Position numbers and translations under genes: made by a program
Shown: positions 4,032 to 44,347 of the stretch, in pieces
Layout of the letters: each line of letters opens with the position of its first letter
How positions within the stretch are numbered: the first letter of the stretch is position 1
Source of the DNA: a virus
DNA length: 54,472 nucleotides
Reading direction: 5' to 3' (one strand)
IMG/VR virus record: IMGVR_UViG_3300023503_000001
Coordinates: 1-54,472 of that record
Notes under the pieces: model-generated
The model's input: only the letters and a program-made list of their open reading frames with translations
What the model was told of the DNA's origin: nothing
Databases searched by the model: none

Positions 4032-4119
4032 TGGTGCCCGAGGCCGGACTCGAACCGGCACTGTCTTACGACAGGCAGATTTTAAGTCTGCTGCGTCTAC
4101 CAAATTTCGCCACTCGGGC
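4032..4119 (-). tRNA. tRNA-Leu(UAA)
   Basis: An 88-nt class II tRNA with GCCCGAG/CTCGGGC acceptor, anticodon stem GCAGA/TCTGC, loop CTTAAAA (anticodon TAA), a long variable arm (CTGTC/GACAG), T loop TTCGAGT and encoded CCA. It reads UUA. It starts three bases after the closing stem of the structured RNA at 4123-4293 and is presumably processed from the same transcript. Confidence 0.95.
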
Positions 4120-26000: not shown

Positions 26001-27291
26001 AAAAATTAATATTGTTGGATTACCTAAGAGTCAGCAAAAAGAAATTTTAATTCGATACAAGGCAGTTCAAATAGCTCTTCAACGTATAGCAAAAGAGGCT
26101 CAAAACGCTGCCGACATAAATAAAATAATGAGCCAAGAAATGGCCAAGGCAGAAAAACAAATACAGTTAGAACGCCTTCAAAGAAGGATAAAAGATGCAA
26201 ATGACTCAACTAAAAAGTTTGATGATACTTTTAAAAAGCTATTTAAAACAATTTCTGATGGTACTAGGTCTACTAAGCAAGAAAAAGAGCAGATTGGCTT
26301 AAGTTCTTTTGAGATTGAAAGATTAAAAATAAGTTATGAGCAAGAAACATTAGATAAGCAAATTTCTGAATTAGCTACAAAAGCACTTACAAAAGCCCAA
26401 AGAGCACAGATTGAAACTTTAAAGCAAGCGTTAGCTCTTTATGTAAAATTAAGAACAGAGACTTTACAACAAAAAGAAGCAGAGGATAAACGAAAGAAAA
26501 CTCTAGAAGAATTGACGAGACAGCAAGAGGACTTTAATAAGTTAAGACTACAAGGCTTTGACTTAATAAAAGAATTTTTACCGCTTGAGCAGCAATATGC
26601 TTTACAAATCGAAGAAATAGATAAAAAATTAAAAGCATACGGGGCAACGGCAGAACAAATAAAGAAAGTCCACAGAAAAGTATGGAAGGATATTCTCGCA
26701 AATGCGAAAGAGACACAGATAACCTTAGAGGATGTCACGAAACAGCTCGCAGAAAAGATGCAGTCGCATTTTTCCGACTTTTTCTTTGATGTAATGCAAG
26801 GAAAATTCGAAAATATGGCTGATTCTTTCAAGCAAGCTTTAGACCGGATGGTTGCAGATGCAATGGCCGCTAATTTGACGAAATACTTAATGGGTCAAGT
26901 TGCACCGAGTGGTTCGTTTGATGGTATTTTAGGTTCTATTGTATCTGGTTTATTTGGAGTAAATCAAACTGCCACACCTCCTTCCACAGGTATAAGTTTT
27001 ACAACCGCTGCATCTTTTACTGGTGGTGCTTTTCCTCAATTTGCAACTGGAGGTGAATTTAGAGTTGGAGGAACAGGCGGTACAGATTCTCAAATAGTCG
27101 CGTTTAGGGCCTCGCCAAATGAAATTGTTAGTATTAAAACGCCTTCACAACAAAAACAAGAAAATAAAAGCCAAGTAATAAATATTACTATGAATATATC
27201 TACACCTAACGCAGATAGCTTTATGCAAAGTAAAAATCAAATTCTTAACGATATTAAATTACAAATGCAACACGCTGGGCGTTTATCATGA
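23068..27291 (+). CDS. Tape measure protein, 1407 aa
   Basis: It sets the tail length and is ejected with DNA. Order: an N-terminal helical region; 61-residue tandem repeats at residues about 151-350; a tape-measure N-terminal-type domain at about 400-610 (GLSIEKATNIFKDYAIAARV; MVSKGTVSMEELRRQLGDHL); hydrophobic helices near 720-830 (GLKIASKFRIIGTAFAYGID; LMDPLGWLAIGFTAISSGLF); long coiled-coils; and a C-terminal domain with FENMADSFKQALDRMVADAM and a Gly-rich stretch. By the common rule of roughly 1.5 Angstrom per residue the tail would be near 200 nm. That is inference from length only. Confidence 0.93.
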   Translation: MAEEIGVNIEIDVTNSQRILADLSRQLLRNDELIAQLKKNGVSWADSFSDKLKELKERIDILGLSSFNYYKQGKNLSQTHINKIKKEIAAVAKLTKMYQQMQAATSQFKFGKSTLLDISKEPFTAHLRDPFKKQKEKELKEQEKLAKTTAKWENKFWSNIDKARLKTQKDDLKAFLTTLQEVSKTHIAASLGGKAATKDLERRKKELEKFGTWEKNFWYNLSQAKIKAQQEDLKRFIKSLQDASKSYTTASLGGQAAVKDLEKRKQALQKFETWEKNFWHNIGKAKLKAQKEDLKRFIDSLKETGRIYKKIKDDNLRAFITSLQANDISGNRVLASLGGKRAQKELEKFRKEQERIIRQQNKVRGETGRLVDGIVLKERRLTSEYLAQLGVQNKLKTVALLLKQTYKETISIANILNTALKISTYALVNKVADFGTFLQESATIASDFIGYKNALAIAAGSQEQATRRMQDAVKIAIQLKLSITAVVKEFSKFINATTLAGLSIEKATNIFKDYAIAARVLNLNEERTSSMFLALEQMVSKGTVSMEELRRQLGDHLPGALNLAAQAMGYSKDKIGEFVKAVSQGKIKSLELVEALGELVKKKTSPYLTAALDKYTAKIQHLQNAITLLKEKIGKVFGWVVGGGAEFIGDVLFWFNKFLPNSATLGAAFDSAGNAIVSADGYLQDWNKDLIASQNETKTTAEKLKDFSDQMKIATSELNVAQMSVLAFTGIIATNASFNVLKMLLSPLNKIKDLFIAIFGLKIASKFRIIGTAFAYGIDIIKNFPKYIGILRLALAGLMDPLGWLAIGFTAISSGLFYFLVHSKKGSVILKVFDNHLIELTDSLSTYSEELDNYLVKASKVQNFQAIDQITQQQQELEKIHNRIVLLANKKKALEQSLGTIEKYLAEHGYYTENAKQALQFIQLLDLEIQALTNYEKTLKTSFESTKNEIDDQVKSLNELLKKYKEWSDNSESYLLDVKINIVGLPKSQQKEILIRYKAVQIALQRIAKEAQNAADINKIMSQEMAKAEKQIQLERLQRRIKDANDSTKKFDDTFKKLFKTISDGTRSTKQEKEQIGLSSFEIERLKISYEQETLDKQISELATKALTKAQRAQIETLKQALALYVKLRTETLQQKEAEDKRKKTLEELTRQQEDFNKLRLQGFDLIKEFLPLEQQYALQIEEIDKKLKAYGATAEQIKKVHRKVWKDILANAKETQITLEDVTKQLAEKMQSHFSDFFFDVMQGKFENMADSFKQALDRMVADAMAANLTKYLMGQVAPSGSFDGILGSIVSGLFGVNQTATPPSTGISFTTAASFTGGAFPQFATGGEFRVGGTGGTDSQIVAFRASPNEIVSIKTPSQQKQENKSQVINITMNISTPNADSFMQSKNQILNDIKLQMQHAGRLS
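23518..24117 (+). repeat. 61-residue tandem repeats inside the tape measure
   Basis: Three clear units begin at residues 151, 212 and 273 with W-E-(N/K)-(K/N)-FW-x-N, continue with KAQ-x-EDLK-x-FI-x-SLQ and end with ASLGG-x-A-x-KDLE-x-RK-x-L-x-KF. A fourth, partial unit (LRAFITSLQ; VLASLGGKRAQKELEKFR) ends near residue 350. Growth or loss of whole units would change tail length in steps. Confidence 0.85.
26695..26708. repeat. TTCGCA-type inverted repeat within the tape measure gene
   Basis: CTCGCAAATGCGAA differs by one base from TTCGCAAATGCGAA, which is the reverse complement of the site at 6065-6078. It lies in coding sequence. Confidence 0.6.
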
Positions 27292-27917
27292 GCTTTGAAG
27301 AAGTCCAATTTCCTAAATCTATTTCATATGGTTCATCTGGCGGACCAGGGTTTTTAACACAAATTAATACAATATCTTCTGGTTTTGAAAAAAGAAATTT
27401 ACGTTGGCCATATCCTAGACATAAATATAATGTAGCTTATGGAGTTAAGACTGCGTCACAATTAGAGGAGTTGATTAATTTTTTCAACGCAATGAACGGT
27501 CGAGCCATAGGCTTTAGATATAATGATCCTTTAGATCATAAAACTTGTTCTTATAAAAATCAACCATCAGCTTTTGATGTTACTAATATTACATCAGCTG
27601 TTGGAGGTGAAACAACTTTTCAATTAGTTAAAAAATATCAAGTAGGTTCAAGAATAATAACTAGACCAATAAAAAAACCGATCCAAGGCACAGTTAAAGT
27701 TGCAGTTAATGGTAATGAATTAACACCTGCTTATTTTACAGTGGATCATACACAAGGATTAGTAACTTTAAACGTTCCTCTAACTGCTGGTGATAGCGTC
27801 ACAAGTGGCTGTGAGTTTGACGTTCCTTGTCGTTTTGATACCGACACTTTGCAAATCAATCTTGTAGCAGATATCGTTGGTAATACAGAAATTCCTGTTG
27901 TTGAGATTAAAGTATGA
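27288..27917 (+). CDS. Tail tip protein, DUF2460, 209 aa
   Basis: It matches the DUF2460/TIGR02217 family found in gene transfer agents and related phages: FPKSISYGSSGGPGFLTQIN, RNLRWPYPRHKYNVAYGVKT, FFNAMNGRAIGFRYNDPLDH, FDTDTLQINL. It forms part of the distal tail hub beneath the tube. It overlaps the tape measure and the next gene by four bases each. Confidence 0.92.
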   Translation: MSFEEVQFPKSISYGSSGGPGFLTQINTISSGFEKRNLRWPYPRHKYNVAYGVKTASQLEELINFFNAMNGRAIGFRYNDPLDHKTCSYKNQPSAFDVTNITSAVGGETTFQLVKKYQVGSRIITRPIKKPIQGTVKVAVNGNELTPAYFTVDHTQGLVTLNVPLTAGDSVTSGCEFDVPCRFDTDTLQINLVADIVGNTEIPVVEIKV

Positions 27918-29391: not shown

Positions 29392-32300
29392 ATGGCAGTT
29401 TTAGCATTATCTGTGGCGGGCGCAGCTATTGGCGGAACTTTAGCATCCGAAGCTGTCTTATTTGGGTTAACAGGTGCTCAAATTGGCTGGACATTAGGTG
29501 GTATTGTCGGAAACATGCTGTTTGGGCCTGATGATGTTTCTCAACAAGGGCCTCGTTTAGAAGATACATCGGTTTCATCAGCCGCCGAAGGAGCTGTTAT
29601 ACCTGTTTTATATGGTACAGGGCGATTGGCTGGACAAGTTATCTGGGCAGACGATTTAGTTGAGCATGTTCATGTTCAATCTAGCGGTGGAAAAGGAGGA
29701 GGTCCTTCTGTAACTTCAACATCGTATACTTACACAGCGTCGTTCGCTGTGTCTTTTGGCTTGAATAAAAATACAAAATTATTACGTCTTTGGGCAAATA
29801 AAAAATTAATTTATGACGCAACAAATAATTCTGATCTTGCTTTTAACTTAAATTTAAATTTTGTATTTTATGATGGAACACAAGAAGAACCTGATGCAAC
29901 GATTGAAGCTTCAGTTGGATTAGGCAATTGTCCTGCTTATAAAGGATTAGCTTATATTGTTTTAAATGATTTAGATTTATCTGAACATTTTGGAAATAGA
30001 ATTCCGTCGATAGAGGCGGAGTTAAGTCACGATACATCTATAAGTCATTCAGTAGGTTCTACATGGGCATATCCTTATGAAGCACCTACTCCTGCTAATA
30101 TGCCTACTCCTGCTAATATGCCTCCTCCAAATTATTCAACTATAACAAGGCATCCTTTAACTGGTTTTTTTGATGGTCAATATTATTATATACAAACTAG
30201 AGTAGATTATTCTAGATATAGTTTAGATTATTCTTTTATTTATCGTCAAAATTTAAAAAATGACCAATTAGAAGAAGTCGTCAGACTAAATGATATATTT
30301 AACGTAAAACCTACTTGGATCGGAGATGAATATTTAAGTACAGGTTATTTTTATGCCTCAAGCAATCCTTCTGATATTGATTCTTTTGTTTGTTTAAAAC
30401 AAAATGCTAAAACAGAAGGACTTATTTGTTTTTATAATATAGAAAACAGGCAAAGTAATTATTTTAACTATCAAACACCAGTTGCTATAACAAGTACAAA
30501 TTCTCATTTAATTTTAGGAGAAACTGCTAATACGCTTCTTATATATTGTAAAAATTCTTATTCTACTATTGGTTATTTTGGTAAAATAAATAAACATTTA
30601 CGTGGAGGTTTATTTAATACTCAAACAGTATATTTAGAAGAATGGGATACTTTTTCTACTAATTCTTATAATTATCATCTTATAATAGATTGGGCAACTG
30701 ATAAATATTTTTACATAGATGAAGACACCTCAGGAAAATATTTACAAGAAACAAATACAACATTTTCGTCAAATCCTAAAATTTATTTACAGTATGCTTC
30801 TTCTTATACTGGTCCAGATATTTTAAATGATTTCTGGGCTACTTTAAGATATTTATATGTGTCAATTTATGGCGCTATAAAATGGGGCATATATTGCGCA
30901 GACATAAATGAAACATGGTATATTTTACGTAATTTTACAGATGGCTATCCTTATTTAATACAACTAGAAGCTACAGGCGAATTATTTCACGCGATTAAAT
31001 TACCTACTGACCTTTCAAGCTTTACTTCAAAATTCGAGGCTGCCGGTGGCTTAAGGTATCATGGAGGCTATATTACTTTTGCATATGGCTCAGGCTATAC
31101 TGAAAGACTTATTAAATTTAATCCAGTAACAAAAGAATTAATTGAAATACAAACTAACGCAGGATATTTTCCTGTAGGTATTTACTATCTACCTGAAAAA
31201 TTATCTTATACTGGACTTGTTCACTATTTATCATATCTAGGTCCTAATAATACAAATCAAGTAGACGCACTTAATTTTTTCTTACTTCGAGAGGGCTTAG
31301 CTTCAAATAAAATTTGGTTACAAGATGTAATTTTAGATATTTGTAAAACTGCTGGTTTAAAAGATAATGAATTAGATGTAACAAATATTACGCAACAATT
31401 AACTGGCTATATAAGAACAAGACTTTCAGCGGCTAAAAATGAGCTTCAAAATTTAACAACTTTTGCTCAATTAGATGCTATTATCCATGATTGGAAATTG
31501 ACTTTTGTTTCTAAAAATAGAGATTTTAGTTTAGCATTAGTTGAAAACGATTTTGCACTTGAGTCTGAAACTTCAAATAATCTTTATGACTTTAAGTCTC
31601 CAATTATTACAGACTTACCTAAAAAATTTATTTTAGAGTATAGCTCTTCTGACCAACTTTATGAAATAGCTACTGCACAAAGTATCTGGGCAACAGGAAA
31701 AACAGAACGGGTAGTAAATCTTCAACTGCCTATAATAATGTCAGATCAGGAAGCTTTAGCTTTAGCTGAATTTTTACATCAATTATCTATAAATACTGTT
31801 TCTCTTTCGTTTAATCTTTCAGATGCATATATTCAATTAGAGCCTACTGATATATTAAAAATTACTTTAAATGGTAAAGATTATACTTTAATCATTAATA
31901 GAATAGACTATGGTTTAAATAGACTATTAAAAATAGAAAGTATTTTATATGATAAAAATTATTTAACATCGTATGGGGAAGCAGGCGGTACTTCTGATAG
32001 ATTACCAAATTTAACAGATAATCCATTTTATGAGTGTATAATTTTAGATACACCTTTGTTACGAGATGTGGATTTAGATCAACCTGGCCCTTATTTGGTT
32101 CCTTATAGCTTAACGAATGTCTATAAAACAGCGCATCTTTTTACTTCTCCTGACTCTTTAAATTATTCTCTTGAAAAGTCAGTTTCTGGTGAGCTAACTA
32201 TAGGCTATGTTGAGTTTCAACCTACTGATATTACTTCTTATGGGGAGTATGATTATATTAATACTTTAGTTGTTACTCTATTTTCTGGACAGCTGTCTAG

Positions 32301-35300
32301 TACAACTGAAGCAGCTTTATTAAAAGGTGCAAATGTTTTTGCTTGGGGTCAAGAAGGTCGATGGGAAATTTGTCAATTTGAGTCCGTAGAATTAATTGAT
32401 ACAAATAAATATTTACTTAAAAAGCTGTTAAGAGGCCGCAGAGGCACAAATAAATTCATAAATACACATCAGGTAAATGATAAGTTTATTTTACTTGATA
32501 GTAATAAAATTGTTCGTCAACAATTAGTTTTAAATGATATTGCTTCTACTTATTATTATAAGTTTTTAGCCTCTCAACAAACATTAGCAGATGTAACTGC
32601 TAAATCATTTACTATAAATGATAATGCTTTAAAGCCATTTTCACCAATCAATATTACATATGATGACAATAATGGAGATTTAATTTTCACTTGGACTCGA
32701 CGTACTAGACGAAATGGTTTCTATTATAATTTATATGATAGTGTAGGAGGCTCTTTACAAGAAGACTTTGAAAAATATAAAATAGAACTCTATGACACAA
32801 ATAATATACTAATTCGTTCTGAATTTGTAACAACAGCTACATATACATATACTCTTGTCCAACGGATCCAAGACGCTGTATTTGATAATTTTACAATAAA
32901 AATATATCAACAAAGCGCAGTAGTTGAAGATGGCTTTGATGAGGTATATACATATCTTTCATCCGTTGATGTAGATCTTAATTTATATTTTTCGACTGCT
33001 TTATCTTTTGATTCAGCATATATTCTTCCTATTGTTCAACCTTATTTAAGTGGATATGGTACTAAGTATGGCTTAAATTATGGAGGTGATGCGTTTAATT
33101 ATTATTTCTCGTCTCAAAATAATATTGAAATAAAAGGGCATTCTGTCGTATCAATACAATCAGATGGGACTGATGAATTAGCATATATACGGCCTAAGAT
33201 ATTTCCTTCTTCATATCAATTTTTATTTAAAATAAAAGGTGTACCTACTAGTGGGACTATTCCATTCTTTTTAGAACGTTATAATGATTCTCCAGAAAGT
33301 CCTTTTATTGGTTTAGCTCTTGTAAATGGTAGGTTTAATAGAGCTATAAGATATAATTTTAATAGTGGAATTTCTTACTACTATTCTGGCGTTACTTATA
33401 ATGGTTCAGATTTTTACGTTAAAGTAATTTATTCTCAAAAAAATGAAGAAATTACTTTTTATATGTCATATGATTTAGAAAATTGGACCTTCATAAGTAC
33501 AGAACAAATAGCTTACTTACCCTTGCCTTGTTTATGTGGTAATACTTCTGTTGTAGCAACTTTTGAATTAATTGAATATTCTCCAGAAATAATAGTCTCC
33601 AAAGATTTAAATGCTACTTATGTAGAGATGTGCTCTAAATTAGGCGCAGTTGTACATTGGTCATTTGATGAGCTTTCTGGTCAAACAGCAATTGATAGCA
33701 TTGGTAGTTTAAATGGAACTTATAATAATACTATATTAACCCAGACGCCCTTACAACTCGAATCTGATTATTCTATTAAATTTAACACTGGAGGCTTCAT
33801 TTCAACTCCATTAAATTTAACTAATAATACAGATATTACTATTTCATGTTTCTTTAAAAGCCCTATACAATTACCTTCTACTATGAAAGTAATTTGTAGC
33901 TTAGGAGATACAATAAATGAAACAGATAAAAAAGTATTATATATAAGTCAAGGTTATGTTTATGCTGATGGTTCAAAAAATTTAACAAATCTTTTCATAT
34001 CTTTTGGTGATACATATTTAGACACTAAGGTTGCAATTAATGATGACTTAATTCACCATTTAATTGTGAGCGTTAAAACAAATGAAGTAAAAATTTATTT
34101 AGATAATCAATTACTTACGTATGAGTATAATAATACAATTGGAAATATAGATTTGACAGGAAGTCAACCTTTATTGATTGGAGCTAAAACAACCACTGAT
34201 ACTGCCTTTAATTGGCATGGTTACCTGGATGAATTTAGTGTCTTTACAGAGGTTCTTCCTTATGCTAAAATTAATCAATTATTTAAACGCAGTATTTCTA
34301 CTTATGCTCAATTTATTTATCAATTAAAGCCATATGCTTATTATCCATTAAATGATTTACGTGTAAATGATTTTTCTGGGAATGAATTTAATTTAGTAAC
34401 TAGTAATGCATTAGTTTTAACAAATAGTTTAGTAGCTAATAAAAAAGATTCAGCGTTACAATTTGATGGTACAGCTTATGTGAAAACAAACACACCGGCA
34501 TTAACTAGTGTTGCAACTATTTGTTTATGGGTTACTTTTGATTCTTCTGCCTCAACAGTTAAAAATATTATATACAGTACAGGACAACCTGACTCTACTC
34601 AGGGTGAAAAAATAGAAATAGGCTACATAGATGAATTAGGTACATCTTCTTTAGCTGTCTTCTTCGGAGGTAACTATATAAAAGATAGCTCGCTCAGAAA
34701 CATAAAAGACGACGCAGTACATTTTATCTGTGTAGTTCTTGGTCCAACCATTGATGCAACTGAACTTTATTTGGATGGTATAAAACTTACTACTGTTAAA
34801 AATAATACCACAGTAGAAAAATCAACTATTGATTTAGGTTATACCTATTTAGGTCGTTCTGTTGATGCTGTTTCTAATAACCATAAAGGAAAACTTGACG
34901 AGGTAACTATATTTAATAAAAAGCTTACTCCCGAACAAATCTTAGTATTATATAAAATAGGTAAGCAAACTTATAGTTCTTTAGCTTTAACTAAATCTAC
35001 TTTTGCTTATTTTAAATTTGAGAAAACATTAAATTTAATTGAGATAAAGGATGAATATCTTCAGTTAACTTCTACTGACTTTAATTTAATTTCGCTTGAG
35101 AGTGGTAATTTAATTGAAGAAACTGGTTGTAAATTCATAGCTGAAACAAGTTATGTGAAAATTATTAATTTAAATAATAGTTTAAATACACTAAAAGGAT
35201 TTAATTTTATTACAGCGATTGATTCACAATTAACCGCTAAATCATCAATTATATCCTTTGTTAATCAAACATTAACGCAGGGCTTTATTCTTTCATATAC

Positions 35301-35643
35301 TTTATCTGGTACATTACTATTTGAAACATATGGTAGTAATGGTTTACTTGATTCTATTAATGTGACAATAGATCGTACTCAACAAATGCATATTGCGATT
35401 GAATGGTCGGGTTTAAATATAGGCGATATTCTTACAATTTATGTAAATGGTCAAAAACAAATAGTTTATACATTTACATCTACGTGGTCTTTGCCTACCA
35501 CTGATCTATACTTAGGTCAAAATACTTTAGTATCTTCTTCTGGATGTGTTTGTTGTATTTCACATTTAGTTTTAAATAATGAGCTTATTGGCGAATTTGA
35601 AATTGCGTCTTTAGCAAATTTCATGGAGAAAACAAATGCTTAA
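29392..35643 (+). CDS. Giant tail tip/host-specificity protein, GTA type, 2083 aa
   Basis: The N-terminal 240 residues (Gly/Ala-rich hydrophobic start, then EGAVIPVLYGTGRLAGQVIW and a Tyr/Thr-rich segment) match the tip proteins of gene transfer agents and related phages. A PTPANMPTPANMPP linker follows near residue 230. A beta-propeller or jelly-roll-like region then precedes the conserved hub region (VLDICKTAGLKDNELDV; SIWATGKTERVVNLQLPIIM; KKLLRGRRGTNKFI). The C-terminal third has at least two LamG/concanavalin-like lectin modules (VVHWSFDELSGQTAIDSIGS; YAYYPLNDLRVNDFSGNEF), each with a typical FDGTAYV-like strand, and a third degenerate one. These likely bind host surface glycans. Confidence 0.9.
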   Translation: MAVLALSVAGAAIGGTLASEAVLFGLTGAQIGWTLGGIVGNMLFGPDDVSQQGPRLEDTSVSSAAEGAVIPVLYGTGRLAGQVIWADDLVEHVHVQSSGGKGGGPSVTSTSYTYTASFAVSFGLNKNTKLLRLWANKKLIYDATNNSDLAFNLNLNFVFYDGTQEEPDATIEASVGLGNCPAYKGLAYIVLNDLDLSEHFGNRIPSIEAELSHDTSISHSVGSTWAYPYEAPTPANMPTPANMPPPNYSTITRHPLTGFFDGQYYYIQTRVDYSRYSLDYSFIYRQNLKNDQLEEVVRLNDIFNVKPTWIGDEYLSTGYFYASSNPSDIDSFVCLKQNAKTEGLICFYNIENRQSNYFNYQTPVAITSTNSHLILGETANTLLIYCKNSYSTIGYFGKINKHLRGGLFNTQTVYLEEWDTFSTNSYNYHLIIDWATDKYFYIDEDTSGKYLQETNTTFSSNPKIYLQYASSYTGPDILNDFWATLRYLYVSIYGAIKWGIYCADINETWYILRNFTDGYPYLIQLEATGELFHAIKLPTDLSSFTSKFEAAGGLRYHGGYITFAYGSGYTERLIKFNPVTKELIEIQTNAGYFPVGIYYLPEKLSYTGLVHYLSYLGPNNTNQVDALNFFLLREGLASNKIWLQDVILDICKTAGLKDNELDVTNITQQLTGYIRTRLSAAKNELQNLTTFAQLDAIIHDWKLTFVSKNRDFSLALVENDFALESETSNNLYDFKSPIITDLPKKFILEYSSSDQLYEIATAQSIWATGKTERVVNLQLPIIMSDQEALALAEFLHQLSINTVSLSFNLSDAYIQLEPTDILKITLNGKDYTLIINRIDYGLNRLLKIESILYDKNYLTSYGEAGGTSDRLPNLTDNPFYECIILDTPLLRDVDLDQPGPYLVPYSLTNVYKTAHLFTSPDSLNYSLEKSVSGELTIGYVEFQPTDITSYGEYDYINTLVVTLFSGQLSSTTEAALLKGANVFAWGQEGRWEICQFESVELIDTNKYLLKKLLRGRRGTNKFINTHQVNDKFILLDSNKIVRQQLVLNDIASTYYYKFLASQQTLADVTAKSFTINDNALKPFSPINITYDDNNGDLIFTWTRRTRRNGFYYNLYDSVGGSLQEDFEKYKIELYDTNNILIRSEFVTTATYTYTLVQRIQDAVFDNFTIKIYQQSAVVEDGFDEVYTYLSSVDVDLNLYFSTALSFDSAYILPIVQPYLSGYGTKYGLNYGGDAFNYYFSSQNNIEIKGHSVVSIQSDGTDELAYIRPKIFPSSYQFLFKIKGVPTSGTIPFFLERYNDSPESPFIGLALVNGRFNRAIRYNFNSGISYYYSGVTYNGSDFYVKVIYSQKNEEITFYMSYDLENWTFISTEQIAYLPLPCLCGNTSVVATFELIEYSPEIIVSKDLNATYVEMCSKLGAVVHWSFDELSGQTAIDSIGSLNGTYNNTILTQTPLQLESDYSIKFNTGGFISTPLNLTNNTDITISCFFKSPIQLPSTMKVICSLGDTINETDKKVLYISQGYVYADGSKNLTNLFISFGDTYLDTKVAINDDLIHHLIVSVKTNEVKIYLDNQLLTYEYNNTIGNIDLTGSQPLLIGAKTTTDTAFNWHGYLDEFSVFTEVLPYAKINQLFKRSISTYAQFIYQLKPYAYYPLNDLRVNDFSGNEFNLVTSNALVLTNSLVANKKDSALQFDGTAYVKTNTPALTSVATICLWVTFDSSASTVKNIIYSTGQPDSTQGEKIEIGYIDELGTSSLAVFFGGNYIKDSSLRNIKDDAVHFICVVLGPTIDATELYLDGIKLTTVKNNTTVEKSTIDLGYTYLGRSVDAVSNNHKGKLDEVTIFNKKLTPEQILVLYKIGKQTYSSLALTKSTFAYFKFEKTLNLIEIKDEYLQLTSTDFNLISLESGNLIEETGCKFIAETSYVKIINLNNSLNTLKGFNFITAIDSQLTAKSSIISFVNQTLTQGFILSYTLSGTLLFETYGSNGLLDSINVTIDRTQQMHIAIEWSGLNIGDILTIYVNGQKQIVYTFTSTWSLPTTDLYLGQNTLVSSSGCVCCISHLVLNNELIGEFEIASLANFMEKTNA

Positions 35644-38050: not shown

Positions 38051-38551
38051 TTAGTCCTCATAAACGGCCAATAAAACTGCGTCAGCGCGGTCTACATCTT
38101 TCTTTCTGGTTAAGTATCTAGCAGTCTCAGGAAACATTTTTAAAACATATTGCCTCGCTGCATCTTTTTCAGTAGCTTGTAAGAAAAAATGACGTTTCCA
38201 TTTTTGAGGCGTAATTAATTTATATTCAATATCTAAAGCAACACAAAGAGCCTCAGGCCAACATGCTGCGTAGCCAAAATTGAAGCTAGCAATTGCACTT
38301 TGTTTTGTAAACGCTTGAACCTTTTCTATATGGACAATTAATTTTCTGTCACTAGCAAAAGCCATATTTTTCCAAGCTTCTAAAATTTCAAATAAATATT
38401 TACCGTTTATTGATTTTTTCTTTTTCTTTGTGGTTAAAATTTGTTCAGTCATAGGCATATCAATTATGCCTACAATTTCATTAGCTTGTTTATCATAAAC
38501 AGCAAGGGCTCCAGTTGCCCCTGGATCGATACCTATAATTATTGGTTCCAC
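38051..38551 (-). CDS. RuvC-like Holliday junction resolvase, 166 aa
   Basis: An RNase H-fold nuclease with first acidic motif IIIGIDPGATGALAVYD, a second acidic site IVHIEKVQAF, and a final DVDRADAVLLAVYED. It probably cuts branched DNA before packaging. It starts at GTG 38551 with GGAG about ten bases upstream, overlapping the end of the polymerase gene by 13 bases. Confidence 0.88.
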   Translation of the reverse strand: MEPIIIGIDPGATGALAVYDKQANEIVGIIDMPMTEQILTTKKKKKSINGKYLFEILEAWKNMAFASDRKLIVHIEKVQAFTKQSAIASFNFGYAACWPEALCVALDIEYKLITPQKWKRHFFLQATEKDAARQYVLKMFPETARYLTRKKDVDRADAVLLAVYED

Positions 38552-40563
38552 CAGTGTCTTTCTCCTATGTCAATTTTTTCTTTAGCTTCTGCCCATGAAG
38601 GACCTTTTTCCATCTCCATAATAATAGGAACATTAAACTCTATAGCTGTTTCCATAATCTCTGCTAATTGTACAAATTCATTATGGAGATCAGGATGATA
38701 CCCTAAATCCAATTCATCATGTACTTGTCCATAAATTGGTATTCTATTAAATAGACCTTCTTTATAAGCTAAAACCATTCCTTTCTTAATGAGATCCGCC
38801 GCCGATCCTTGTAGCCTATAATTTAAAGCTTTATATGTTTCTGCGCGGCGGATTGCTTTACCATAACGAGAAACAGCTGCTTCATACGGCAAAGGATAAC
38901 CTTTACCTCTAATTGGCTCCCATTTATCAAATGTAGTTCGTCTATTTAAGATAGTTCTAATTTCACCTTGTCGCTGTGCTATTTGAGAGCATTCTTCCAG
39001 CAAGCGTTTAGCTATAGGGAATTTTTTATGATAATGTGTTATAAATAAATTAGCTAATTGCTCTACTGGTTTAGATAGAACATTAACTCCAAAACTTTTA
39101 ATTAGGTCATAAATTTCCTCCATTGTGAAAATCATGCCCATTTGTGATGTTATTGTTGCCTTGCCACCACCGTACACTAATGAAAAATTCATTGTTTTGA
39201 CGGCGATTCTTGGTAATTTACCACCAAGCTCTTTTCCTACATAAGCATGATAATCAGTAAATGGATCATCTCTATATTGTTGTATCAAATCTTTATCATT
39301 CGAGAAATGAGCTAACATCCGTAGCTCAATCGAACTATAGTCAGCTTTTACCCATTCATATCCTTCTTCTGGAAGAAAGCAAGACCTAATTAAAGGTCCT
39401 ATTTCTTTATCTCTTGATGGAATTTGTTGAACAGCTGGTTGACTCGCAGCAAAACGACCTGTTACCGTTCCTCCTGAATCTGATCTTAAAGGATGAAATG
39501 AAGGATGCACACGTCCATTTGTATGTTTTTCTAAAATAGCCCCTTTTAGGAAGGTATCTCTAGCTTTTGTATATTTTCTAATATCAATAATTAATTTTGA
39601 AGCTTCATCATATTGGCGCTCTAACCATGCTTTCTTGAAACTAGGATTACCTTTTTCTGTATATTCATATTTAATCCCAGCTTTATCATAAAGATATTGT
39701 AAATCATTTGTAGAATCTACATTAATTTCTCTACCTGCGAGTTCATTTAATCGTTGCTGTTTTTCATTTATTAATTTTGTTACTTTTTGACTTGAAAAAT
39801 ATGCACGCTCCTCTGAAATTGGGATGCCTCTTAACCTCATCTGTATAAGTAAGTCAATTAGATCACACTCTAACCTAAAAACATCAAGTAAGTTTAGAAT
39901 ATCTAATTGACTCCATTGTTTCTTAAGAATTTGAAAAGGCAAACGAGCGTCTGCTTCAGCGTAGGGGCCAACTAACGCAGGAGGTGCCCTCCAAATATTT
40001 TTTCTCTGAGAGCCATCTGGTTTTCCACCATAAGCCCTAGAACACCATTCATAGAGCTCATTACTACTCTTGCCTTCTCCTAAATATTTTTTTGCAATAT
40101 TATCTAGTGCATAAGAATACGCATTACCATCTAAAACAGCCTCAGCGAATTGTACATCATATTTACGACCACCTACATAAATATTTTCCGTAGTTAACCA
40201 ACCTACATCATATAAAGCATTCGCAAAAACTTTATCTTTATTATCTTGTAAAAGATCTCGCAAATACGAAAAAACATTGTCAGGATTTAAATTATCTTGA
40301 GAATCTATTTTATGTCTAACAGGAAAATACCACGCAGCATCTACTGTCGCGATAGAAACTCCAACTATATGGCCTACTCCCCTTCCCCATCCAGGACCTA
40401 TTGTCAATAGCTCTGGGTCATATGTTTCTGTATCGATTGCAATTGACTTCGCAGATGATAAATTAGGAAAATCTTTTGGTGGTGTCCATTTTTTTGAATA
40501 AGCAGGCAAAGAAACTCTTGTTTCTTTTTTTACATCTTTAAAAGGCTTTATATCAAACAGCAC
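38539..40563 (-). CDS. Family A DNA polymerase with 3'-5' exonuclease, 674 aa
   Basis: The proofreading exonuclease spans about residues 35-200 (SIAIDTETYDPELLTIGPGW; FANALYDVGWLTTE; YALDNIAKKYLGEG). The polymerase has motif A WVKADYSSIELRMLAHFS, motif B RIAVKTMNFSLVYGGG and motif C QVHDELDLG. The length is typical for T7-like replicative enzymes. The start overlaps the clamp-like gene, implying joint synthesis. Confidence 0.95.
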   Translation of the reverse strand: MLFDIKPFKDVKKETRVSLPAYSKKWTPPKDFPNLSSAKSIAIDTETYDPELLTIGPGWGRGVGHIVGVSIATVDAAWYFPVRHKIDSQDNLNPDNVFSYLRDLLQDNKDKVFANALYDVGWLTTENIYVGGRKYDVQFAEAVLDGNAYSYALDNIAKKYLGEGKSSNELYEWCSRAYGGKPDGSQRKNIWRAPPALVGPYAEADARLPFQILKKQWSQLDILNLLDVFRLECDLIDLLIQMRLRGIPISEERAYFSSQKVTKLINEKQQRLNELAGREINVDSTNDLQYLYDKAGIKYEYTEKGNPSFKKAWLERQYDEASKLIIDIRKYTKARDTFLKGAILEKHTNGRVHPSFHPLRSDSGGTVTGRFAASQPAVQQIPSRDKEIGPLIRSCFLPEEGYEWVKADYSSIELRMLAHFSNDKDLIQQYRDDPFTDYHAYVGKELGGKLPRIAVKTMNFSLVYGGGKATITSQMGMIFTMEEIYDLIKSFGVNVLSKPVEQLANLFITHYHKKFPIAKRLLEECSQIAQRQGEIRTILNRRTTFDKWEPIRGKGYPLPYEAAVSRYGKAIRRAETYKALNYRLQGSAADLIKKGMVLAYKEGLFNRIPIYGQVHDELDLGYHPDLHNEFVQLAEIMETAIEFNVPIIMEMEKGPSWAEAKEKIDIGERHWWNQ

Positions 40564-41404
40564 TTGCTAATACTCCTTGAAAATTTACGCCTTTGAAATA
40601 AACTTTATGCTGATCAAAATAATAATAAGCGCTATTTTCTATAAATCTTTTAAATTTTCTTGTGTCATATTTTCCTTGTCCAATAATACCCTCTATTAAA
40701 GAAGTAGCTCTTTCATTTTTAATAAAATGAGCGCCATCAGTTTTAAACTGGATATAATCTGCGGCGTCTATTAAATTATTTCTTAGTTTATCTGGAATTA
40801 GTTGCCAATCTAAACTAACTTCGAAAAAAGCATCAGTAGAGGGAAAATCTAGCTCTAAACCAGAAACAATAATATAAAAGTTAGGTCCTTTAAACCACAA
40901 TCTATTATTTAATATAGCATATTCTTCTATGCCTGAAGGAAGTTTACAATTTACAAAGATTCCTTCTTCTTTGTATCTATAATTCAAATACAGCCTAAAA
41001 ATATGCTGGCTAGATAATACTTCAATAAATGATCCTGCCATTCGTATGCCAGGATATTCATTATCTATAAATGAATTAGCGAAATTCCAAGCTTTGACAA
41101 TTTCTTTATCTGTCCAAAAATGAACAGATTGTGGTACCTTAGGAATTTTTTCTTTTGCTAATTTATTAAATACAATTTGTTGGGTTTCATCAAATAGGGT
41201 TAATGTTTCTTCTGTTTCATCAATGAAAAAGTTAGTATCTAACTTTTTCATAGCTTGGACAAATATTTTAGCGTCTACAGCTGTATTTACCTTTTTAAAT
41301 CGTTTATCTATTACTAAATAACCAATAGACCCTTTTAAGGCGAATAGAAGACCATTACTAATGGTAATAACATCACATGTTTTAAATTGAGACAATAATT
41401 TCAT
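40553..41404 (-). CDS. Sliding-clamp-like protein (inferred), 283 aa
   Basis: No catalytic motif is visible. The order of short strands and helices resembles beta-clamp domains: LKGSIGYLVIDKRFKK with AVDAKIFVQAMKKLDTNFFI, then a divider EKIPKVPQ, a second repeat FWTDKEIVKAWNFANSFI, and an end VYFKGVNFQGVLASAV like the C-terminal strand of bacterial clamps. Its place immediately before the DNA polymerase, with overlapping codons, fits a processivity factor. I chose ATG 41404 over the TTG two codons earlier. This is an inference from pattern only. Confidence 0.5.
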   Translation of the reverse strand: MKLLSQFKTCDVITISNGLLFALKGSIGYLVIDKRFKKVNTAVDAKIFVQAMKKLDTNFFIDETEETLTLFDETQQIVFNKLAKEKIPKVPQSVHFWTDKEIVKAWNFANSFIDNEYPGIRMAGSFIEVLSSQHIFRLYLNYRYKEEGIFVNCKLPSGIEEYAILNNRLWFKGPNFYIIVSGLELDFPSTDAFFEVSLDWQLIPDKLRNNLIDAADYIQFKTDGAHFIKNERATSLIEGIIGQGKYDTRKFKRFIENSAYYYFDQHKVYFKGVNFQGVLASAV

Positions 41405-41816
41405 TGTCAAGATCTACCTTAAATGTGTTTCCAGTCCAAAGCTCTTTAGATTTTGGCCAAGAGTGATGAAATTCAAAAATAAATAAATTTTGAATATTTG
41501 TAGCCATAATTGCTTGCATACATGATACACAAGGACTCAACGTGCTATAAATATTATAAGCATCCTGGATTGCACGACACGCAGTTATTGCACTTATTTC
41601 TGCGTGGGCAGCTACACAACTTTTTCCCGGTAAATGTCCTCCACAAGGGACCTCTTGGCAAGCTGGTAACTTTCTAGGTGGGCTATTATAACCTATAGAC
41701 AATACTCTATTATTTTTATCGGTTAAAATAGCTCCAACCTGTCTATCAATGCAGCCAGAACGTTTGCTTGCGAGCAACGCCATTTGCATATAATATATAT
41801 TAATATTAACCCTCAT
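41382..41816 (-). CDS. dCMP deaminase family protein, 144 aa
   Basis: A zinc-dependent deaminase with the catalytic AHAEISAI (His and Glu) and zinc-binding LSPCVSCMQAI motifs. An extra Cys/His set (CQEVPCGGHLPGKSCVAAH) lies just upstream, as in phage and bacterial dCMP deaminases. It would convert dCMP to dUMP. It is separated from the thymidylate synthase homologue by one small gene, and all three overlap by TAATG. Confidence 0.93.
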   Translation of the reverse strand: MRVNINIYYMQMALLASKRSGCIDRQVGAILTDKNNRVLSIGYNSPPRKLPACQEVPCGGHLPGKSCVAAHAEISAITACRAIQDAYNIYSTLSPCVSCMQAIMATNIQNLFIFEFHHSWPKSKELWTGNTFKVDLDNEIIVSI

Positions 41817-42067
41817 TAAAACGCTTCTCTATAAAAACCTTTATTTGTTTCATAACCAAATATGATTGGTTCTTTTTGCTCTTCATCTACAAAAATTATA
41901 CATCCATTTATACGTTTACCTGTATAACCTTTTGCCGAGGTGAGTCTTAATGACTTACATTCTATTACTAATTCTTTATGAGCTTCTTTACTTAAAGACA
42001 CAGCTGTAGGATACTCACCAAATTCATAAATAAAACGTTCTTTAGCTTTAATCAACTCTTTTAACAT
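41816..42067 (-). CDS. Hypothetical protein, 83 aa
   Basis: A small alpha/beta protein placed between the thymidylate synthase homologue and dCMP deaminase, sharing one base with each neighbour (TAATG). The N-terminal helix (LKELIKAKERFIYEFGEYPT) is followed by strands (GKRINGCIIFVDEEQKEPII). The family is not recognised. Its location suggests a part in nucleotide metabolism or its control. Confidence 0.7.
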   Translation of the reverse strand: MLKELIKAKERFIYEFGEYPTAVSLSKEAHKELVIECKSLRLTSAKGYTGKRINGCIIFVDEEQKEPIIFGYETNKGFYREAF

Positions 42068-42876
42068 TACAAAGCCATCTCTGCTTCTATTGCTGGATAA
42101 TGTTTATAATTAATTAATGATGCGTCTTCTGGTTTAAAAGAAAAGACTGAACAATCATTAGAGAGACTTAATCGTGGAGATCTATATGGTGTTCTCCATA
42201 ATTGTTCGTTAACTTGTTCTAAATGATTTAAATAAATATGTGTATCACCAAGATATACTTTTAATTGACCAGCTTTTAAGCCTACTGTTTTGGCAATTAA
42301 ATGTGTGAGTAAAGCATAAGATGCTATATCAAAAGGTAAGCCTAAAAATACATCACAACTGCGCATATAAAAAGATAAATCTAAAAAAGATTGTCTTCGT
42401 ACATATACTTGCCAGAAAATATGACAAGCTGGTAAGCATTGACGTTTTTCAGCTGGGTCCCACGCTGACACAACCATACGTCTATCAGTTGGATTATTTT
42501 TTATAGTTTCAATTAAATTAGTTAATTGATCAACTCCGTTAAAATCTCTCCATTTTGCTCCGTAAATTAATCCCATATCGTCAGGACCACGACAATATTC
42601 AGATTCTTGCCATGAAGGTGCATTTGCGTTTGCGTCCCATATTTTAGTGCCAAGTTCCCTCATTTCAGCTGCAGAAGTTACTCCACGTAAAAATCCAGCT
42701 AATTCAGCGCAGACTGAATTAAAATATAATTTTTTTGTTGTCACGACTGGAAAACCTCGTAAGAGGTTAAACTGCAGAGTGCATCCAAAAACTGAAAGAG
42801 TGCCTACGCCTGTGCGATCTTGACGTTTTTCGCCATTTCGCATAACATCGCTCAGAAGATTTAAGTAATTTTTCAT
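42067..42876 (-). CDS. Thymidylate synthase homologue with Asn to Asp change, possibly dCMP-specific, 269 aa
   Basis: The complete ThyA fold is recognisable: DRTGVGTLSVFG, the catalytic Cys151 in LPACHIFWQ, the phosphate-binding RSCDVF, the folate and nucleotide face LGDTHIYLNH, and the C-terminus PAIEAEMAL. In LGLPF-D-IASYALL the invariant dUMP-binding Asn (E. coli Asn177) is Asp183 (codon GAT at 42330-42328). T4 dCMP hydroxymethylase has Asp at the equivalent position, and the engineered Asn to Asp change in Lactobacillus ThyA shifts the substrate to dCMP. The enzyme may therefore make 5-methyl- or 5-hydroxymethyl-dCMP rather than dTMP. AGGTGA precedes the ATG. Confidence 0.9.
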   Translation of the reverse strand: MKNYLNLLSDVMRNGEKRQDRTGVGTLSVFGCTLQFNLLRGFPVVTTKKLYFNSVCAELAGFLRGVTSAAEMRELGTKIWDANANAPSWQESEYCRGPDDMGLIYGAKWRDFNGVDQLTNLIETIKNNPTDRRMVVSAWDPAEKRQCLPACHIFWQVYVRRQSFLDLSFYMRSCDVFLGLPFDIASYALLTHLIAKTVGLKAGQLKVYLGDTHIYLNHLEQVNEQLWRTPYRSPRLSLSNDCSVFSFKPEDASLINYKHYPAIEAEMAL

Positions 42877-43589
42877 ATTTTTTCACCTGTGAGAGTATAG
42901 AAGGCTTCCCTAAGAAGATTTTCATCAACTCCTTCTTTTTTCGCTTCAAAATATGCTACAGTTAGATCAACTTTTAGAATGTCTAATGCCTCAATTACAG
43001 ACATTTTTTTCTTTGTTTTCTTTTTTGGTTGTTTTTCTTCAACTAATTCAGCGTCTAATTTATTTCCTTCTTCGTCTTTAACATCTACTTTAAAAGGATT
43101 ATCTTCTTCGTCGCTATCCTCTTGCTCGATATTAGATATGTTTTCAGTAATCTTTTTCGATTTTTCTTTTTTCTTAGTTTGTTGCTTTTCTTCTTTTATC
43201 GTTTCTTTAATTGCTTGTATATCCTTAACTGTTGACGCAGGCGTAATATCTCCAAGATTAACAAATTCATCTAATTTATCATAAGGTAATTGAGTCAATT
43301 CATAAAGACTACGCGAACTAGCGGGAAGACTAGAACTATATTTAATCAATTTTTCAGCGTTGCGGCCTATTTTAGCAAATTGACTAGCACTAGAATTACT
43401 TAAGCCCCACTTTTCTAGTGCTAATTCTTGAAAATCATATTCAGGTGAACCTTCACACCTGTCTTTCAAAGTATATACAATTTTAGCGAAGACTAAAAGA
43501 CTTTCTACAGTTTTTTTCTGAAACTGAATACCAAGATCAATTAGATCGTCAATTGTAGCTGCTGCGTTTATTGTCTCTTGTAAATTCAT
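42873..43589 (-). CDS. Helical DNA-binding-like protein with acidic/Lys linker, 238 aa
   Basis: Residues about 1-120 resemble DUF3102/ParB-like helical regions (ALEKWGLSNSSASQFAKIGR; LPASSRSLYELTQLPYDKLD). A long low-complexity linker follows (about 125-195; EEKQQTKKKEKSKK, EQEDSDEEDNPF), then a short helical end. It may regulate gene expression or bind DNA. It overlaps the thyA-like gene by four bases. Confidence 0.7.
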   Translation of the reverse strand: MNLQETINAAATIDDLIDLGIQFQKKTVESLLVFAKIVYTLKDRCEGSPEYDFQELALEKWGLSNSSASQFAKIGRNAEKLIKYSSSLPASSRSLYELTQLPYDKLDEFVNLGDITPASTVKDIQAIKETIKEEKQQTKKKEKSKKITENISNIEQEDSDEEDNPFKVDVKDEEGNKLDAELVEEKQPKKKTKKKMSVIEALDILKVDLTVAYFEAKKEGVDENLLREAFYTLTGEKI

Positions 43590-43753: not shown

Positions 43754-44016
43754 CTTGCTATAAACTCCCAAGTTTCTTTATCAAATTGCTTTTGTAAAAC
43801 AGAAATAAGCTTAATAATTTCTTTTTCAGATAAAGCATTCCAAATTGCTATAGCATTTTGAACTGTTTTAGTACTCTCAGGATGACGCTCTAAAAGAGTT
43901 CTTATTAAAATAGCTTTCTGAGCTTCAGATGCTGACGAAATATATCTCACACATTTCCGTAAAAATGCATTGGCTTCTTTTTCGTCAATTTCTTTATTTT
44001 CCATAACGTTCAACAT
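43744..44016 (-). CDS. Hypothetical helical protein, 90 aa
   Basis: All helical (KEANAFLRKCVRYISSASEA; LSEKEIIKLISVLQKQFDKE). The start may be Met 44016 or Met 44004. Both overlap the NTP pyrophosphatase gene. No family is recognised. Confidence 0.65.
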   Translation of the reverse strand: MLNVMENKEIDEKEANAFLRKCVRYISSASEAQKAILIRTLLERHPESTKTVQNAIAIWNALSEKEIIKLISVLQKQFDKETWEFIARWR

Positions 44017-44347
44017 TCACAAGTTGTTTCTCTCGAATCTTTAATAAAAAATGAGATGATGTAAATTCAAGTTCATTTAGTATGTTAAAAATAAATAATT
44101 GACAATCGACAAGCTCTTCAACCAAAGCATCTATATTTACATCTTTAGGCTGTTTCCAAGGTCTCCAATTTGTTTCATTTAAAACTTCATTTGCTTCACA
44201 AACTAATGCAATTGCATTATTTGCTAAACGTTTATCTTTTGTTTGGCCCATTGATAGTCTAAGAATAGATTGAATTTCTTGTTGTAAGGCCATCGCTGTC
44301 GCTAATTGATCAGAAGGTAAAGTATGTAATTTTTGGATAACGTCCAC
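43994..44347 (-). CDS. All-alpha NTP pyrophosphatase (MazG/dUTPase/dCTPase-like), 117 aa
   Basis: A helical protein with the metal-binding motifs of the dimeric dUTPase/MazG superfamily: E-A-N-E-V-L-N-E in helix 2 and EELVDCQLF in helix 3, plus a conserved WRPWK. It would hydrolyse a dNTP to dNMP. Depending on specificity it may make dUMP from dUTP, or dCMP from dCTP, feeding the dCMP deaminase and the thymidylate synthase homologue downstream. It overlaps the helicase gene by 38 bases. Confidence 0.8.
   Translation of the reverse strand: MDVIQKLHTLPSDQLATAMALQQEIQSILRLSMGQTKDKRLANNAIALVCEANEVLNETNWRPWKQPKDVNIDALVEELVDCQLFIFNILNELEFTSSHFLLKIREKQLVNVERYGK

Follow-up and report, generated by a model that had tools for sequence, protein, structure and literature searches.

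A phage ThyA homologue with aspartate at the dUMP-discriminating position: a probable dCMP C5-methylase

Introduction

Within the thymidylate synthase (TS) family, Asp at position 177 (E. coli ThyA numbering) is a determinant of specificity for dCMP (PMC8670742, PMC6400193, PMC5175136). Exchange of Asn for Asp at this position turns TS from dUMP to dCMP, and the product is 5-methyl-dCMP (PMC8670742). Hydroxymethylation has a signature of its own, described by Park and colleagues as an acidic residue, Asp or Glu, at the third position ahead of the catalytic Cys (Cys-3) and a Ser or Thr at the second position ahead of the active-site Tyr; the hydroxymethylase that they describe is also devoid of the TS C-terminal tail (PMC6400193).

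Several phages are known or thought to carry modified cytosine. The DNA of Xp12 has 5-methylcytosine (5mC) in place of cytosine (PMC7653180, PMC9206674), and the XP-12 deaminase converts 5-methyl-dCTP to dTTP (PMC12088426). According to the authors of the AXL1 paper, the genetic basis of the modification is not known (PMC9206674). On contigs selected for modified cytosine by MetaGPA, TS genes co-occur with PF00383 and PF14437 deaminases and a PF01503 pyrophosphatase; TS genes on cytosine-modified phage contigs mostly encode Asp177, and position 147 is reported as a top differing site (PMC8670742).

A related problem exists among the T4-like phages. In Mosigvirus, the genus of RB69, a gp42 homologue is described as making 5-hydroxy-dCMP (PMC13390438). 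Acinetobacter phage 133, ZZ1 and the genus Gaprivervirus are reported to have no known modification enzyme and to retain homologues of DenB, Alc and dCTPase, which argue for a non-canonical base; an unknown protein was suggested as its source (PMC8056088). The Gaprivervirus phage VR7 has modified cytosines in unglycosylated DNA, according to a study of BREX (PMC6326788). As these accounts present it, the enzyme that makes the Gaprivervirus base was left open both in 2021 (PMC8056088), then also for 133 and ZZ1, and in 2025 (PMC12115623), when the base itself was still called unknown.

Here, a ThyA homologue from a virus record is compared with these systems. Its best explanation, held at a probability of roughly 0.7, is a ThyA-derived dCMP C5-methylase that provides 5-methyl-dCMP for incorporation into phage DNA, with a neighbouring deaminase diverting part of the product.

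A ThyA-family gene in a phage replication block

The window, meaning the whole stretch analysed, is the 54,472-base virus record IMGVR_UViG_3300023503_000001. Terminase, portal, capsid, tail and endolysin genes lie on its plus strand. The minus strand carries a block for replication and nucleotide metabolism with genes for a DNA ligase, a family A DNA polymerase (38539..40563; PF00476), a deaminase, the ThyA homologue, a dUTPase_2-type pyrophosphatase, a helicase, a Sak4-like recombinase and an SSB-like protein.

The ThyA-family gene (42067..42876, minus strand), a predicted dCMP C5-methylase of 269 amino acids, belongs to PHROG 160 and matches PF00303 at 302.9 bits, against a cut-off of 24.3. 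Its start overlaps by 4 bp a 238-amino-acid gene (42873..43589, minus strand) that matches no family and has a homologue in L187, a locus on the same contig as L002, which holds the nearest relative of the window enzyme. Downstream by 250 bp, on the same strand, is a gene of the Zn-dependent dCMP deaminase family (41382..41816; PF00383 at E 6e-18, PF14437, PHROG 174). An 83-amino-acid ORF between the two (41816..42067, minus strand) has no family match and is conserved in L187. The gene that the earlier note called an NTP pyrophosphatase (43994..44347, minus strand) is indeed an all-alpha NTP pyrophosphatase, now placed more precisely in PF08761 (dUTPase_2), a Pfam family that T4 gp56 dCTPase matches too; it is a possible source of dCMP or dUMP.

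Asp183 and the fold of the window enzyme

The residue at issue, Asp183, is encoded by GAT on the minus strand (42328..42330) and aligns with Asn177 of E. coli ThyA, Asp of T4 gp42 and Asn of SPO1 gp29. It sits in FLGLPFDIASYALL, where the remainder of the LGLPF-x-IASYALL motif is canonical. The earlier observation that an otherwise invariant Asn is replaced here in a full-length ThyA homologue is therefore upheld. A sequencing error is unlikely because L002, the closest relative at 63% identity, also has Asp there. Thus, the window enzyme does not carry the Asn177 mark of dUMP-specific thymidylate synthase; instead, it carries the Asp177 mark of the dCMP-type enzymes, among them T4 dCMP hydroxymethylase, MilA and engineered N177D TS. 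A second active-site position also differs from ThyA, with Met171 (ATG, 42364..42366, minus strand) in place of E. coli Gln165, as in T4 gp42.

The fold is that of a typical ThyA. An AlphaFold2 model (pLDDT 93.4) has Mtb ThyA (4fog_D) as its best structural match, with Z 36.8, an rmsd of 1.2 over 257 residues and 44% identity, and it overlays E. coli ThyA as well as it does the Mtb enzyme. T4 dCMP hydroxymethylase does not appear among the 50 listed fold matches, a result that carries no weight on enzyme class. The closest parallels to a ThyA core with a changed specificity residue are the engineered TS variants N177D (E. coli) and N229D (L. casei), dCMP methylases to whose methyl product that of the window enzyme is likened. 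In contrast to these variants, the window enzyme is natural and phage-borne and additionally has Gln165 changed to Met.

Methylation or hydroxymethylation

The residues that set methylases apart from hydroxymethylases can be read directly from the gene. In Leu148-Pro-Ala-Cys151-His152 (42421..42435, minus strand), the catalytic Cys is preceded at -3 by Leu, the methylase type, rather than Asp or Glu, and is followed by the retained TS His147. The Ser/Thr-x-Tyr of hydroxymethylases is replaced by Leu103-x-Tyr105 (42562..42570, minus strand). The C-terminal tail, missing from T4 dCMP hydroxymethylase, is present and ends in AEMAL (42070..42084, minus strand), aligned to APVAI of E. coli. Consequently, the published signature (PMC6400193) is absent at every point tested, an identity as a hydroxymethylase was rejected, and the 5-hydroxymethyl alternative offered in the earlier note is unsupported. 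Sequence and model together suggest an intact hydride transfer, with 5-methyl-dCMP as the product.

Comparison with T4 gp42 frames what can be said for the rival in which the window enzyme is a dCMP hydroxymethylase that yields 5-hydroxymethyl-dCMP and 5hmC in the virion. Both enzymes have Asp177 and Met165; however, gp42 carries Asp at Cys-3, Ser-x-Tyr and Thr147 and is devoid of the C-terminal tail, and the window enzyme shows none of these features. A gene for dihydrofolate reductase (DHFR, PF00186) is missing from the window and from all 13 nearest-type contigs, compared with its presence in 9 of 25 Asn-type contigs. This absence tells against a methylase, since a hydroxymethylase would not need DHFR; because a methylase makes dihydrofolate, a host DHFR must serve if the methylase reading holds. 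The retained His147 also has a side that counts against methylation of dCMP, being replaced in T4 gp42 and in the relatives of Xp12. Against hydroxymethylation stand the Leu at Cys-3, Leu103-x-Tyr, the retained tail and His147, and the lack of any sugar transferase among the window proteins scanned with Pfam or PHROGs. On balance, this rival is very improbable.

Recurrence of Asp177 and a second change at position 165

Asp177 is an uncommon but recurrent variant. In a first, unbiased search of IMG/VR, it was found in 13 of 74 homologous frames from 73 loci, and a motif search of the same resource returned 24 stretches with the Asp version and at least 120 with the Asn version. A larger set of 361 hits was reduced to 276 distinct sequences after removal of duplicates and of matches shorter than 200 residues. 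Asp is present in 32 of its 197 viral homologues (two viral rows have a gap), a proportion that overstates the frequency because the set was fed by searches with an Asp-type alignment and an Asp-specific DNA pattern. Only one of the 79 distinct cellular-contig homologues has Asp177, L087 from a Bacteroidales MAG (JAAZCF010000165.1), and this may be a prophage.

Trp80, Leu at Cys-3 and His147 are conserved throughout the 33 Asp-type rows. Position 165, Gln in E. coli, is Met or Leu in 24 of the 32 viral Asp-type rows and Met or Ile in 9 of the 163 viral Asn-type rows (Fisher 8e-17, uncorrected for kinship). Among T4-like phages, Met165 is likewise found in gp42 of T4 and in seven further gp42-type enzymes, and three relatives of Xp12 have Leu or Ile. 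A test on independent pairs of the 115-row tree described below gave about 2.5 concordant pairs and 0.1 opposite, which is not significant for so few pairs. The cited portions of the literature used here do not name position 165 as a mark of dCMP use.

These data bear on the rival in which the window enzyme is an ordinary dUMP thymidylate synthase that tolerates Asp. Its closeness to Mtb ThyA in sequence and fold would fit this rival, as would the retention of Gln165 in the remaining 8 of the 32 Asp-type viral sequences. Nevertheless, the known biochemistry of the Asn to Asp exchange (PMC8670742, PMC6400193), the joint change at position 165, the deaminase cassette and the pattern in T4-like phages described below all oppose it, and it is judged quite improbable.

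A tree of 115 rows, built without columns 177 and 165, places at least five Asn/Asp changes on well-supported branches, with seven on the best tree. This makes Asp a recurrent and retained state rather than a single accident, and the candidate grouping of Asp-type enzymes in one clade is unsupported. The smallest well-supported set that holds the window enzyme beyond its sister L002 comprises 28 rows, 22 with Asp and 6 with Asn, which makes the 13 nearest-type contigs a working group and not a proven clade.

The deaminase cassette and the fate of the product

Gene neighbourhoods were compared between 25 Asp-type and 25 Asn-type contigs drawn from 66 candidates. A PF00383 deaminase scores over the cut-off on 19 of 25 Asp-type and 4 of 25 Asn-type contigs (20 and 5 at E 0.001), and it immediately follows the TS gene, in the same orientation and within 2 kb, on 13 and none, respectively, counts that are non-independent and come from groups unmatched for kinship or completeness. 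Many Asp-type contigs also have a replication module of polymerase and helicase genes in common. One pyrophosphatase-like gene family is shared by 12 of 17 Asp-type loci, the window included; its five scanned members are pyrophosphatases of the PRA-PH or dATP/dGTP-diphosphohydrolase type. In one Asp-type locus (L189:9971-14855), the next gene after that for ThyA is one for DNA polymerase III alpha, which contains a weak LAGLIDADG-like stretch.

The earlier suggestion that the deaminase balances nucleotide pools can stand in refined form. Its role need not stop there, since the XP-12 enzyme yields dTTP from 5-methyl-dCTP (PMC12088426), and by analogy the pair of TS and deaminase may also serve as a thymidine supply. 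Trp127 of the window deaminase aligns with Trp128 of the deaminases of Xp12 relatives, and 11 of 12 deaminases of Asp-type loci have the equivalent residue. As a mark of 5-methyl substrates, Trp128 was discarded because the SP18 and ZZ1 deaminases have it too and it does not discriminate.

Taken to its limit, such a supply gives the rival in which dCMP is methylated and the product is wholly deaminated to thymidine nucleotides, a way of making dTTP without dUMP that leaves ordinary cytosine in the virion. The deaminase position in the window and the 13 Asp-type contigs agrees with it, as does the XP-12 reaction. ThyX is absent from all 50 contigs, which removes it as the TS replacement in Asp-type phages, and 24 of the 25 Asp-type contigs have no second TS. 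A search for a T4-type deoxynucleotide monophosphate kinase was negative in the window, which counts for this rival and against the leading explanation, and on 23 of the 25 Asp-type contigs; incorporation of 5-methyl-dCMP assumes phosphorylation by a host or unrecognised kinase. The contig of L166 (L237, IMGVR_UViG_3300024346_000306) also lends it support: an Asp-type ThyA and a deaminase are encoded there together with a hydroxymethylase that resembles T4 gp42, at 45% identity to the T4 enzyme, and the two dCMP-type enzymes may thus occur side by side. On the other side, MetaGPA saw Asp on contigs selected for modified cytosine (PMC8670742), and Asp in Td, the TS of T4-like phages, tracks phages thought to be cytosine-modified, of which VR7 is (PMC6326788). 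Moreover, Xp12 does both. Complete diversion to thymidine is thus considered unlikely, and the window phage probably builds 5mC.

The Xp12 parallel

The relatives DLP4, AXL1 and PaMx28 of Xp12 encode an Asp177 TS near a deaminase, a DHFR and a pyrophosphohydrolase; the relatives of Xp12 in Bosavirus and Pamexvirus have an Asp-type TS beside a deaminase. The window shares with these three phages Asp177, a hydrophobic residue at 165, a nearby Zn deaminase gene and the phage setting. However, their TS enzymes are far more divergent, with Pro at His147, Asn at Cys-3, a FVGLPYDVMGHALL motif and a DHFR in the cassette. The window has His152 and Leu148 at the equivalent positions and no PF00186 gene, which sets its enzyme outside the Xp12 branch. 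By analogy, it probably works like an Xp12 dCMP methylase.

Td in T4-like phages without gene 42

The weightiest check of the dCMP reading is the pattern of Td in T4-like phages. One Asp-type contig of the search, L238, is Acinetobacter phage 133. Td has Asp and no gp42-type enzyme is found in 133, ZZ1, SP18, VR7, VR20, VR26 and MP1, all of them phages for which the absence of any base-modifying enzyme had been reported. In contrast, Td has Asn in T4, RB69, CC31, JS98, Bp7, DP45, Ac42, Acj61 and VR5, which possess a gp42-type second enzyme, and in RB43 and RB49, which have no such enzyme and whose DNA is given as canonical (PMC8056088). Asn is therefore present in all 11 T4-like phages with a gp42-type enzyme or canonical DNA. 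AS-zj is a miss, having Asn in Td and no gp42 match though grouped with phages reported to lack a modification enzyme. AM101, whose Td has Asn, was left out of the counts. The association (Fisher 0.002) was computed before T4, VR5, VR20 and VR26 were added and ignores kinship; since SP18, VR7, VR20 and VR26 belong to one genus, Gaprivervirus, the Asp group amounts to three or four independent cases.

Td of 133 and ZZ1 resembles the window enzyme in its ThyA core, Asp177, His147 and Met165. Gaprivervirus Td shares the first three features; however, the four Gaprivervirus phages and MP1 keep Gln165 and thus do not match the window enzyme fully in type. Gaprivervirus, 133 and ZZ1 further differ from the window in their T4-like setting and in a DHFR near td. 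From sequence comparison, Td with Asp177 is probably the simplest candidate for the missing cytosine-modifying enzyme of T4-like phages without gene 42. The VR7 modification, left unnamed in the cited passages (PMC6326788), could be the product of another enzyme. Those parts of the open-licence PMC literature that were searched name no naturally occurring Asn to Asp exchange in Td.

Three distant genes, the ThyA frames of L246 (9080-10471) and L067 (4615-5964) and RB49 td (NC_005066: 136873-138099), have long in-frame insertions near the active-site Tyr loop, at roughly equivalent positions. No Pfam family matches the inserts in the L246 and L067 frames.

Proposed pathway and implications

The earlier reading of Asp183 as a dCMP-type residue is borne out by the specificity site itself, the second active-site change, the deaminase cassette and the T4-like phages without gene 42. 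For the window phage, we infer dCMP as substrate, 5-methyl-dCMP as product and 5mC in the virion. In the proposed mechanism, Asp183 would bind and protonate N3 of cytosine, so that dCMP is selected over dUMP. Cys151 would attack C6, with methylene-THF as the carbon donor, and the retained TS parts (Trp80, Tyr105, His152, Leu148 and the C-terminal tail) would allow hydride transfer to give 5-methyl-dCMP and dihydrofolate. Kinases would raise 5-methyl-dCMP to 5-methyl-dCTP, which the phage polymerase could insert for some or all cytosine, and the resulting 5mC may protect the DNA from restriction. Like the Xp12 enzyme, the neighbouring deaminase would convert some of the 5-methyl-dC nucleotides to thymidine nucleotides (or some of the dCMP to dUMP).

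A broader reading, whose chances appear evenly split, would join these systems. In that account, dCMP-methylating ThyA arose several times by Asn to Asp exchange, a cassette with a deaminase, in siphophages like that of the window, yields both 5-methyl-dC and thymidine nucleotides from dCMP, and Td is the modifier in T-even phages without gene 42. The base of Gaprivervirus, 133, ZZ1 and MP1 would then be 5mC, with dUMP-based thymidylate coming from the host. The window residue would thus point to Td, annotated as thymidylate synthase, as the modifier in cultured isolates of Gaprivervirus, 133 and ZZ1. It also suggests a rule for candidate 5mC phages in metagenomes, namely Asp177, a hydrophobic residue at 165 and Leu at Cys-3, in genes that otherwise pass as ordinary thymidylate synthases. 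Such phages are relevant to restriction escape, to bisulfite and nanopore work and to the choice of phages for therapy.

Additional features of the window

The tail module includes a 2083-amino-acid protein (29392-35643, plus strand) with gene-transfer-agent-like (Rcc01698) and laminin-G lectin domains and a DUF2460 protein (27288-27917, plus strand), which hint at an alphaproteobacterial host. Four tRNA genes (242-315, 323-395, 2281-2353 and 4035-4119) were identified on the minus strand with a covariance model.
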